Shown one piece after another: positions 54,482 to 62,234 of a stretch of DNA of 64,000 nt. Position 1 is the stretch's first letter. Every line of letters starts with the position of its first letter. Where the stretch lies: the NCBI RefSeq assembly GCF_001618865.1, contig NZ_CP015136.1:4189001-4253000 (forward strand). Direction: 5' to 3'. The notes under the pieces were generated by a model. That model worked only from the letters and a program-made list of their open reading frames with translations. It made no database searches and was not told the DNA's origin. The translations under genes and the position numbers were made by a program. The DNA is from Luteitalea pratensis. GTDB taxonomy: Bacteria; Acidobacteriota; Vicinamibacteria; Vicinamibacterales; Vicinamibacteraceae.

Positions 54482-54575
54482 TCAATGCCGGAATGCCGAA
54501 AATGCCGGGATGTCGAGATCTCAGGTCCTCGACATGTCAGCATTTCGGCACTTCAGCATTTCAGAATTCGCGAAT
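54482..54575. repeat. AATGCCGG facing-arm hairpin (degenerate)
   Basis: Units of the AATGCCGG type ending GGATGTCGAGATC face an inverted arm starting CTCGACATGTCAGCATT. The inner 8-bp stem (ATGTCGAG/CTCGACAT) is perfect and the outer arms pair with several mismatches. It is in the gap before the TonB-dependent receptor gene. Confidence 0.7.
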
Positions 54576-58208: not shown

Positions 58209-58287
58209 GCAAATGCCGGAATGCCGGAATGTCGAGATCTAAGTACTCGACATTCCGGCATTTCAGCATTCCAGCATTTTCGGCATA
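58209..58287. repeat. AATGCCGG facing-arm hairpin with perfect 17-bp stem
   Basis: AATGCCGGAATGTCGAG (58220-58236) and its exact complement (58246-58262) flank a nine-base loop. Further AATGCCGG and AATGCTG units extend both arms. The right arm reaches the end of the split outer-membrane protein gene and may form its last codons. Confidence 0.85.
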
Positions 58288-59095
58288 CCTGACCGACCTA
58301 TCGGCCGAACGCAACCCCCGACGAAGAAGACCGCGCCGCCGAGCGATGTGTCACCGGTGACGGCCGAGACGCCGCTGTCGCCGAGGGCGCCGGGCACGGC
58401 GCGGTAGCGGAACTCGGCGCGGATGGCGAAGCGCGGCTGCAGGTAGACGTCCACGCCGCCGAGGACGTGATACGACGCGAATGTGTCGTCGACGGTCTCA
58501 TCCTCTTCTTCGAACTCGTCGGACTCGCGGTAGAGCAGGACGCCCGCGCCACCGCCGATGTACGGCACCACGCGCCGCCGCGTACCCGGGGCACCGTCGA
58601 ATCGCCAGCCGGCCGTGAAGTCGATCGGCACCATCCGGATGTCCAATGGAATCCCGAGCGGGTATCGCCCTCCTGCATCGTCGAGAAAGACCCGCTCGCC
58701 AGTCTCGCCCGACCAGTCGACTGACCCGCGAACGAAGAGCTGCCGATAGACACGCGTCGCCTCGACGCCGCCACCGAATGCCAGCAGATTGCCCGTGATG
58801 CCGACGGCGTCGAACGAGTCGCGGGCATCAGGCGCGAACAACCCGACGCCGGCAAACCCGATGCCACCCGGCCCAGGCTTCTTGGGCGCCTGGTCTGCCG
58901 GCGCCGCGTCCTGCGCAGGCGGAGGCGGTGGCAGCGGCCGCAAAGGCGGCCCGGGGACGGCCGGCTCACCTGGCGAAAGCACGAGTCGATGGACGTATCC
59001 CACGACCGGAGGGTCGCCAGCCCGGACGCGCCACCAGTCGCCCTCCAGGCGCTCGAGGACCTCGACCCTTGCGCCGCGTTCCAACCGCGCCAGGA
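58263..59095 (-). pseudogene. SH3-like / outer-membrane protein gene, 3' part, cut by IS21
   Basis: The larger piece of a gene split by an IS21-family element. It keeps the second half of an SH3-like domain (LERGARVEVLERLEGDWWRV), a Pro-rich linker and a beta-barrel region with outer-membrane repeats (AFGGGVEATRVYRQLFVRGS, RRVVPYIGGGAGVLLYRES, VDVYLQPRFAIRAEFRYR). Joining base 59089 to the 5' part at 61638 gives one open frame through the SH3 domain (GPVL-ARLERG). The last residues (SGMPKMLEC) lie in repeat DNA and are probably not original. An in-frame start in the element could give a truncated product without signal peptide. Confidence 0.85.
59090..59095. repeat. Target-site duplication, left copy
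   Basis: CCAGGA directly before the TG end of the element; the same six bases follow the CA end at 61638-61643. Confidence 0.85.
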
Positions 59096-59291
59096 TGCGG
59101 GCGCCGCTCAGAAAGTAGACCAGTCCGCCGCTCGGAAAATGATCCACCTGCGGGGCCTCATTCTACGCGGAGCGGGCCGGTAGGCCCGCCTGCCATGCCC
59201 TCATCGTGAGGGGTGGTCTTGTCCTTGACGGCCTGCGGGCGGCTTGGCCCCCGCTCTGAGGGGCCAGGCCGGCTGCAGGCCGTGCGCCGCG

Positions 59292-60053
59292 TCAGTCGGC
59301 GCTGGTCCGCCGTTTCTTCATGCGGTAGCTCTTGCCCTTGGTCGTGATCACCGTGGCGTGATGCGCCAGACGATCGAGCAGCGCGGTCGTCAGCTTCTCG
59401 TCGCCGGCAAAGACCGTGACCCACTCGGCAAACGCGAGGTTCGTGGTCACCACCGTCGCGCGCCGCTCATAGCGATCGGCGATCAGATTGAAGAGCAGTT
59501 CGCCGCCGACCCGATCAAACGGGACGAAGCCCAGTTCGTCGATGATCAGGACGTCCTGGGTGAGCAGGCGTCGCTGCAGCCGTGCGAGCTCGCGCGCATC
59601 ACGCGCTTCGAGGAGCTGACGTACCAGATCGGCGGCGCGCGTAAAGAGCACGCGCCGCTTCTGCCGCGTCGCTTCGACGCCGAGCGCGATCGCGAGGTGC
59701 GTCTTGCCCGTGCCGATCGGGCCCGCGAGGATCAGGTTCTCGGGGCGCGTGACCCACTCCCCACGGGCGAGCGTGTGGATCTGCGCGGCGTGGACCCCCT
59801 CGGCCGTCGCAAAGTCAAAGGTCTCGAGCGTCTTGACCTCCGGGAAGCGGGCCTCGCGCAGCCGCTGGCGGATCACCGACTCGTGGCGCGAGGTGTGCTC
59901 GGCGTTGAGTACCTCGTGCAGGTAGTCCTCGTAGGGCCAGTGCGCGGCCTGCGCCTGACGCGCCAGCGCTTCAAAGCTGCGGGCCACGCCCGGGAGTTTG
60001 AGCGCGCGCGTGTGGCCGACGATCAGGTCGCGCGTGATCGCGGGCGTGCTCAT
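59292..60053 (-). CDS. istB: IS21 helper ATPase IstB
   Basis: IstB is the AAA+ helper that directs IstA to target DNA. The 253 residues have Walker A LAGPIGTGKTHLAIAL, Walker B DVLIIDELGFVPFD and the family N-terminus RDLIVGHTRALKLPGVARSF. The ATG overlaps the istA stop (ATGA). The C-terminus is basic (SYRMKKRRTSAD). The frame is intact. Confidence 0.95.
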   Translation of the reverse strand: MSTPAITRDLIVGHTRALKLPGVARSFEALARQAQAAHWPYEDYLHEVLNAEHTSRHESVIRQRLREARFPEVKTLETFDFATAEGVHAAQIHTLARGEWVTRPENLILAGPIGTGKTHLAIALGVEATRQKRRVLFTRAADLVRQLLEARDARELARLQRRLLTQDVLIIDELGFVPFDRVGGELLFNLIADRYERRATVVTTNLAFAEWVTVFAGDEKLTTALLDRLAHHATVITTKGKSYRMKKRRTSAD

Positions 60054-61528
60054 GCCGCACCGTCCTGCAGCCAGCGGTCGTAGTCCGCGGCCACGCCGCT
60101 CGTGATCGCCACATCGCGGAGCGACGCCGGCACGGCCTCCGCGCCGAGCACCGGTGGCGCCTCCGCATGCACGGCCAGTCGGAGGGGCGTGCCGTCGCGC
60201 AGGGCACGCTCGAGTGCCGGCACGACGACGGCCGCACCGGCGGCGTGCAGATCGCCCAGGATCTTGGCGAGATGCCGGGCGGCGTCCCGCGGCGCATGCT
60301 GCGCCGTCAGGTTGGCCCACACCGCGGGGAAGGGATCGCCGAGATCGCGCACCAGATCGGGCGCGACCTGGCGGACCGCCTGCGGCTTGATCGCCAGTGC
60401 GGGCAGGTAGTGGCGATAGTCGATCGAGCGGCCGCCAAAGCGTTGCCGCGGATGGGAGATGCGCCGACCGTCGCGGCCGACGATGGTGACCGTCGTCGCG
60501 CCGACCCAGGCCGTCAAATCCAGCCCGGCCCACGCGCACGGCACCGAGTACCACGCGCCGTGGACCCGGGCCAGCGCGCGCGGCGCGATGCTCACGGGGA
60601 CGGCCGCCTCGGCGACAAACGGCACATCGAGCGGACGCAGGAGGCGCTGCTCCTCGGCGGAGCGCACGCCGATGGTGGCCTCGGTGCCATGCCGGCGCGT
60701 GTCGCGGCGCGCATCGAGCTGCGCCAGCAGTTGCGTGTTGATCGCGTCGAGGGTGTCGCCCGCGGGAATTGGCGTCAGTGCCTGCAGCCGGATGTACTTG
60801 CCGCGCGATTCGACGCCGCCCTTGTCGTGGCCGACGCCCGGGCGACAGAAGCTCGGCTCGAAGAGATAGTGCGAGGCGAGCGCCGCAAAGCGGATCGTCA
60901 GGGCCCGCTCGCCGCCGGCGAGGATCCGGGCCACCGCCGGTTTGAGATTGTCGTACGCCACCCGCGTGGGCGCGCCGCCCAGATGGGCAAAGGCGCGCAC
61001 GTGGCCGTCGAGAAAGCTGACCTGATCCTGGCGCTCGTAAATCCAGCCGAAGTCGCGGCCCGAGTACATCAGGCGCAGCACGAAGAGCCACGCCTTCTGG
61101 CGCCGGCCCGCCACATCGACCTGCACTTCAAAGAAGTCGACCTCCGCCAGCTCGCCCGGGCGATAGGTCAGCGGAATCAGCGGCTCGCGTCGCTGCCGCT
61201 TCCACTCCGCCACGGCCGCCTTGACTAGGGAGACGCCGACATCGTGACCTTCCGCCCGGAGCAGCTGGTGCAGCCGCGTGGCCGTCAGTCGCTGTTTGGG
61301 CGTGGTCCAGCGCGGCGCCTCCTCGAGCAGCGCGGCGATGCGCGGTGCGACCGCCGCGCTCACGGGCCGCGGTCGCGGCTGCGCCTCGTGCCGCACCGGC
61401 GCGGCCTGCGCCAGGTACTTCTTCACCGTCACCCGCGACAGCCCCAGCTCCCGCGCCACCGCTCGCTGCGATCGTCCCTCGACCAGCACCTTGTGCCGGA
61501 CCACATGCACCTGATCCATCCTGAGCAT
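60050..61528 (-). CDS. istA: IS21 transposase IstA
   Basis: A 492-residue DDE transposase. The N-terminus has an HTH (GRSQRAVARELGLSRVTVKK) and the rve core: EVDFFEVQV (first Asp), RVAYDNLKP (second Asp) and HDKGGVESRGKYIR (Glu). The C-terminal Mu-like beta barrel is visible in WYSVPCAWAGLDLTAWVG. It is followed without a gap by istB. The open frame shows no damage. Confidence 0.95.
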   Translation of the reverse strand: MLRMDQVHVVRHKVLVEGRSQRAVARELGLSRVTVKKYLAQAAPVRHEAQPRPRPVSAAVAPRIAALLEEAPRWTTPKQRLTATRLHQLLRAEGHDVGVSLVKAAVAEWKRQRREPLIPLTYRPGELAEVDFFEVQVDVAGRRQKAWLFVLRLMYSGRDFGWIYERQDQVSFLDGHVRAFAHLGGAPTRVAYDNLKPAVARILAGGERALTIRFAALASHYLFEPSFCRPGVGHDKGGVESRGKYIRLQALTPIPAGDTLDAINTQLLAQLDARRDTRRHGTEATIGVRSAEEQRLLRPLDVPFVAEAAVPVSIAPRALARVHGAWYSVPCAWAGLDLTAWVGATTVTIVGRDGRRISHPRQRFGGRSIDYRHYLPALAIKPQAVRQVAPDLVRDLGDPFPAVWANLTAQHAPRDAARHLAKILGDLHAAGAAVVVPALERALRDGTPLRLAVHAEAPPVLGAEAVPASLRDVAITSGVAADYDRWLQDGAA

Positions 61529-61637
61529 CCTCTCCAGCGGACCCCGGCGCCGCGTACGCCGGCAAGTCCGCCCGTCAGACCCTCAGGTGGTCTACTTTCC
61601 GAGCGGCGAATGGATCACTTTCCGAGCGGCGCGCCCA

Positions 61638-61643
61638 CCAGGA
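61638..61643. repeat. Target-site duplication, right copy
   Basis: CCAGGA directly after the CA end of the IS21 element; partner of 59090-59095. Confidence 0.85.
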
Positions 61644-61830
61644 CGGGCCCACGCACACTCGGGGCGCCACGCAAGAACGTCGCGTCCGTGTTGACGTGCA
61701 TCGCGCTGCCGTCCCGTGCCGGCGCTGCTGGCGGCGTGGCGGGTTGTGCGCCGGCGAGGCCGGCGCGACTGGCCAGCATGGCGATCAGTGTCGCGGCCGA
61801 CAGGATGCGGGGGACGTGGCGATCTCTCAT
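61638..61830 (-). pseudogene. SH3-like / outer-membrane protein gene, 5' part, cut by IS21
   Basis: The 5' piece of the split gene: ATG 61830 with GGAGG four bases upstream, a signal peptide (SAATLIAMLASRAGLAGAQ) and the first half of an SH3-like domain (VNTDATFLRGAPSVRGPVL). The frame then enters the element and stops at 61615. Without the element it continues into 59089 and below. The padR gene lies 69 bases upstream on the same strand and may have been co-transcribed. Confidence 0.83.
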
Positions 61831-61898: not shown

Positions 61899-62234
61899 TC
61901 ACTGCTCGTCGAACCGGAGGACGTGCCGGACACCCTGGACCAGCTTCTGCCACTTGGCCTCTTCCTCGTCGAGCTGGCGGCGCCCAGTCGGCGTCAACGC
62001 ATAGACGCGGGCCTTGCGCTGGCTTTCGGTGACACTCCACGAGGACTTGACCCAGCCCTCCTGCTCGAGTCGCCGGAGGGCAGGGTAGAGGGAGCCCTCC
62101 TCGACACGCAGCAGGGCGTGCGATGTCTGCTGGATGTGCTGGGCGATGGCGTAGCCGTGCCTTGGGCCCGCGTCCAGTGTCTTCAGGATCAGCAGGGTCA
62201 GCGTGCCCTGGAGGGCATCAGTCCTTGGCGGCAC
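61899..62234 (-). CDS. PadR-family transcriptional regulator
   Basis: A 111-residue PadR regulator: GTLTLLILKTLDAGPRHGYA, IQQTSHALLRVEEGSLYPAL and LRRLEQEGWVKSSW form the winged helix, with a C-terminal dimerisation helix. It starts with GTG at 62234. In Acidobacteria PadR genes commonly precede MacB-like ABC permease genes; here the next gene is the IS-split outer-membrane protein. Effector and targets are unknown. Confidence 0.9.
   Translation of the reverse strand: MPPRTDALQGTLTLLILKTLDAGPRHGYAIAQHIQQTSHALLRVEEGSLYPALRRLEQEGWVKSSWSVTESQRKARVYALTPTGRRQLDEEEAKWQKLVQGVRHVLRFDEQ

Follow-up and report, generated by a model that had tools for sequence, protein, structure and literature searches.

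Elements of the IS21 family are described, in the passages of PMC10122671 that deal with them, as carrying istA followed by istB, two or more repeats at each end and a terminal CA. IS5376, a member of this family, is the closest described system to the element analysed here, and the two share, as far as those passages go, the istA-istB order, a DDE transposase with an AAA+ helper, paired repeats at each end and the terminal CA (PMC10122671). For IS5376 insertions, parts of PMC10122671 and PMC11208146 give 5-bp direct repeats, whereas our element, which is distant from IS5376 in sequence, is flanked by 6 bp at the copy studied and by 5 bp at its other copy. The copy studied lies in a window of 64,000 nucleotides (the whole stretch of DNA that was analysed) from Luteitalea pratensis. 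Among sequences of solved structures IS5376 is the best match for both proteins: only two sequences matched IstA at E <= 0.001, both of them IS5376 IstA (best E 7.4e-20), and IS5376 IstB tops the list for IstB (E 1.3e-45). By inspection, the D, D and E of our IstA align with those of IS5376 IstA. The host of IS5376 is Geobacillus stearothermophilus. In addition, IstA scores 245.6 bits against the NCBIfam IS21 transposase model NF033546 (cut-off 160) and IstB 284 bits against the IS21 helper ATPase IstB model NF038214 (cut-off 200). The element is an ordinary IS21-family insertion, a further member of a family that is already known. Our analysis makes it almost certain that an active-looking element of this family was inserted by IstA/IstB transposition into the gene of an SH3-plus-beta-barrel outer-membrane protein, duplicating six bases (Table 1). 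The intact element, its ends, the duplicated bases, the open joined frame, the homologue across the junction and the identical second copy are all seen directly; IstA and IstB would have carried out the insertion, the gene would now be inactive, and the event would be recent on an evolutionary scale.

Table 1. Features of the interrupted locus, in window positions
Feature	Position	Strand	Basis
Host gene, 3' part: remaining SH3 domain, proline-rich linker, OMP_b-brl barrel, stop	58263..59095	-	joined frame, domain search
Hybrid frame, 294 aa, GTG start in left end of element; possible truncated product, no signal peptide	58263..59147	-	ORF list, domain search
Target duplication CCAGGA, left copy	59090..59095	.	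sequence comparison at element edges
IS21-family insertion sequence, 2,542 bp, TG...CA ends	59096..61637	- (istA/istB strand)	ends, profile matches, identical second copy
Left terminal repeat, outer, 21 bp	59102..59122	+	repeat search
Left terminal repeat, inner, 21 bp	59126..59146	+	repeat search
GC-rich hairpin 3' of istB, no U-tract seen	59228..59283	-	inverted-repeat search
istB, AAA+ helper ATPase, 253 aa	59292..60053	-	open frame; domain, structure-sequence and NCBIfam matches
istA, DDE (rve) transposase, 492 aa	60050..61528	-	open frame; domain, structure-sequence and NCBIfam matches
Right terminal repeat, inner, 21 bp	61588..61608	-	repeat search
Right terminal repeat, outer, 21 bp	61611..61631	-	repeat search
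Target duplication CCAGGA, right copy	61638..61643	.	sequence comparison at element edges
Host gene, 5' part: signal-like N-terminus (by inspection), start of SH3 domain; ATG 61830-61828	61638..61830	-	joined frame, domain search
PadR-family regulator, just upstream of host gene, same strand	61899..62234	-	domain search

The sequence-only reading had proposed an element of IS21 type with TG...CA ends, and the ends (TGCGGG...GCCCA), the IstA and IstB models and the second copy all agree with it. At least two repeats are present in each terminal inverted repeat, the 3' ends are CA, and the target duplication is short at both copies. The same reading had counted two 20-bp repeats at each end; the number stands, and the length is 21 bp. 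Its intact istA and istB are indeed both open on the minus strand, with a 4-base overlap and istB directly downstream. The ends are fixed independently, because the exact second copy (G000:C1:6045561-6048102, or L020 5562-8103), which lies 1.8 Mb away in the same genome (G000) and is identical over 2,542 bp, has different flanks and its own 5-bp duplication, GGCGT. The 6-bp duplication CCAGGA that had been claimed is found at both edges, and a chance match is unlikely, since 6-mers coincide in only about 0.0007 of random position pairs in the window. Across the two ends the terminal repeats correspond crosswise, left-outer to right-inner and left-inner to right-outer, each pair agreeing at 95% of 21 bases (59102-59146, 61588-61631); this pairing is also seen by inspection in the element of G003, a genome of the same genus, and is absent from some relatives. 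Just inside the istB-side repeats, at 59158-59167 on the minus strand, stands CGTAGAATGA, which by inspection is present in five of the seven elements compared, with CATAGAATGA in its place in one and an altered form in that of G003.

A 6-bp duplication might be thought unusual. We rejected this idea, as lengths of 6 and 7 bp are also met with in related elements. The survey of duplications took in 44 of 61 loci (17 partial or edge matches were dropped) and five further rows, 49 in all, of which ten are without recognisable ends; rows L106 and L108 are G116b and G112. Thirteen rows have the same ends as our element and represent 11 distinct insertions, both own copies included, as two rows are the same insertions seen twice, with identical flanks. 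Six of these show a 5-bp duplication, one (this copy) 6 bp and one 7 bp; of the other three, two lack an exact duplication (by inspection, one of them agrees at 4 of 5 bases) and the third sits at the end of a contig. Six bases are thus within the range, because same-end relatives show 5 to 7 bp in 8 of 11 insertions. Identical copies in one genome here adjoin duplications that differ by one base (6 vs 5 bp). Among more distant elements, whose ends are uncertain, L112 has 6 bp, L120 has 7 bp, and L123 and L139 have 5 bp. Identical element flanks link order-level relatives to sequence records, G116 to MELF01000013 and G122 to JADZCN010000005, and the same contig end links G056 to JAENWD010000207; all three belong to Acidobacteria or Vicinamibacteria, which places the window in an acidobacterium.

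When the element and one CCAGGA are removed, the flanks join into a single open frame of 339 codons that begins with the ATG at 61830 and stops at 58263. The sequence across the junction is GGG CCC GTC CTG GCG CGG TTG GAA (GPVLARLE), and the junction falls between residues 64 and 65, within the SH3 domain. The earlier claim that the codons join to ARLERG without a shift therefore holds, although it is RGPVL, and not the GGPVL that had been given, that precedes the junction. The SH3-like domain followed by an outer-membrane region, likewise predicted, is recovered once the parts are rejoined: SH3_3 covers residues 50-99 with 37.2 bits (Pfam cut-off 27) and OMP_b-brl residues 137-296 with 33.4 bits (cut-off 28.7).

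The sequence-only reading was to count as refuted if no homologue spanned the junction; a near full-length, uninterrupted one does so without a gap in G002 (locus L012), which like G003 belongs to the same genus. It shares 60% identity over 321 aligned codons, with dN 0.33 and dS 0.90, whose ratio is an average over the periods preceding and following the insertion and has no bearing on the age of the insertion. In domains it has SH3_3 over the Pfam cut-off, whereas its barrel, at 21.6 bits, stays below 28.7, and its gene neighbourhood is, by inspection, unlike that of the host gene. The joined protein has a match in 78 of the 162 genomes of the order set, which holds one genome per species and includes our own (77 of the 161 others). 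Own gene aside, matches reach from residue <=31 to >=317 in three genomes: G002, G064 (31% identity, ungapped at the junction) and G052 (from residue 31 to about 320). In G056 the match begins at residue 61, and the remaining order matches begin further on; in the remaining five family genomes the start lies in the linker or barrel (residues 95 to 146). A paralogue in the own genome (G000:C1:5660263-5660901) likewise matches from the linker or barrel onward. The barrel paralogues L014, L015, L017 and L019 show no SH3-like stretch by eye, and in a pattern scan of the contigs with the joined host protein none of the 197 matched stretches encodes a relative.

The age of the insertion had been given as young. 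The identical second copy is the best support for recent movement, strengthened by the perfect CCAGGA duplication and by flanks that are still open; the claim carries no date, and gene conversion could keep copies identical. The insertion could in principle be old and look young, if gene conversion had kept the copies alike and the flanks had drifted stop-free by chance. Such a history fits the presence of only two full copies, as well as the final nine residues of the host frame, which are unmatched in G002. We nevertheless consider it improbable, given the perfect duplication and the 275 codons that run past the junction without a stop. Those nine residues also qualify the claim that the host gene is otherwise undamaged: the flanks are open, but this stretch, which nothing in the G002 homologue matches, enters by inspection a repeat-like sequence. 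As a separate observation, a head-to-head pair of the dispersed palindromic repeat TCGACATTCCGGCATT stands directly beyond the host gene stop, window positions 58220-58262, and the repeat recurs at 54484-54516. The own genome holds 90 sites of TCGACATTCCGGCATT at <=1 mismatch, 33 of them exact, against none for the reversed control, and its four Y1_Tnp matches all lie 10 kb or more from any listed TCGACATTCCGGCATT site.

As the host gene stands, the frame of its 5' part ends after 71 residues and holds part of the SH3 domain. The gene is regarded as inactivated, since the 5' part would give at most a 71-aa stub and the 3' part is without a signal peptide. It had been suggested that a start codon inside the element's left end may allow a truncated product, and the GTG at 59147 does open such a frame, although the product would be without a signal peptide. 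It is conceivable that the split gene still works, the GTG being read on the istA-istB transcript to give a useful 294-aa barrel protein. The frame is open from this GTG, a GAGG lies 8 nt upstream (by inspection), the direction is that of istB, and between istB and the host-gene part the terminator scan listed nothing on the minus strand. Against this, no signal peptide is seen in the product by inspection, its SH3 part scores slightly under the Pfam cut-off (26.2 vs 27 bits), and a stable hairpin separates istB from the GTG; the segment 59180-59300 folds with a z of -2.51, a stability equalled or exceeded by 4 of 200 shuffles. We therefore think a working split gene unlikely. It is more doubtful still that the element serves as a reversible switch, in which the exact restoration of the frame on exit and the element's own start codon would let the population alternate between the full secreted barrel and an altered form.

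That an assembly error has joined a repeat to unrelated sequence is the least credible account, as assemblies can be misled by identical repeats but the own genome is a single 7.48-Mb contig with exactly two full copies, each with its own flanks and its own duplication, and both flanks here join into one conserved protein. The element is, by our main reading, probably a live IS21 element, with its two identical copies as indirect support. The flanks of the second copy, when rejoined, give an open frame of 103 aa from an ATG, a putative gene. Neither Pfam nor NCBIfam yields a match for it, the other 161 order genomes contain none either, and the own genome has a single weak match at another place (53% over 38 residues, E 3.5e-5).

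A like-for-like empty site was found neither at the locus of G003 with PadR and XerD nor in the neighbourhood of the G002 homologue. Beyond PadR, upstream of the host gene, lies a profile match to XerD. XerD is present at E <= 1e-60 in 5 of 7 family genomes, and absent at that threshold from G001 and G002. In the 9-kb stretches around it in G003, G004, G005 and G006, an LptG-like frame occurs in each, and G003 alone has PadR. There PadR and XerD stand together, and PadR is followed by an 866-aa frame, permease-like by inspection, with no host gene. The empty site itself is not seen because the G003 locus has the permease-like gene and the G002 homologue has different neighbours. Since PadR is followed by this frame in G003, the host gene is patchy among relatives.

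Related IstA proteins occur at E <= 1e-50 in 9 of 162 order genomes and at E <= 1e-150 in 3 of 396 phylum genomes, the own genome included in both counts. Plasmid records held no near match to the element. A literature search on IS21 and insertion sequences in Acidobacteria returned no paper titled on this element, and 'IS21' is absent from the main text of PMC5900883. What the locus adds is a record of a probably live IS21 element, present as two identical copies, from a genus with five genomes compared (two of them single-contig), together with an SH3-plus-barrel gene which this strain seems to do without. It raises no question of long standing. An IS21 element in G003 (G003:C1:4291241-4293775) has 82% DNA identity over its full length and the same end sequence, and differs in lying at a different site with a 5-bp duplication, AGAGC. 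Beyond the two copies of the element, the own genome holds three more long IstB-family matches (G000:C1:3444596, 3360762 and 4738960).
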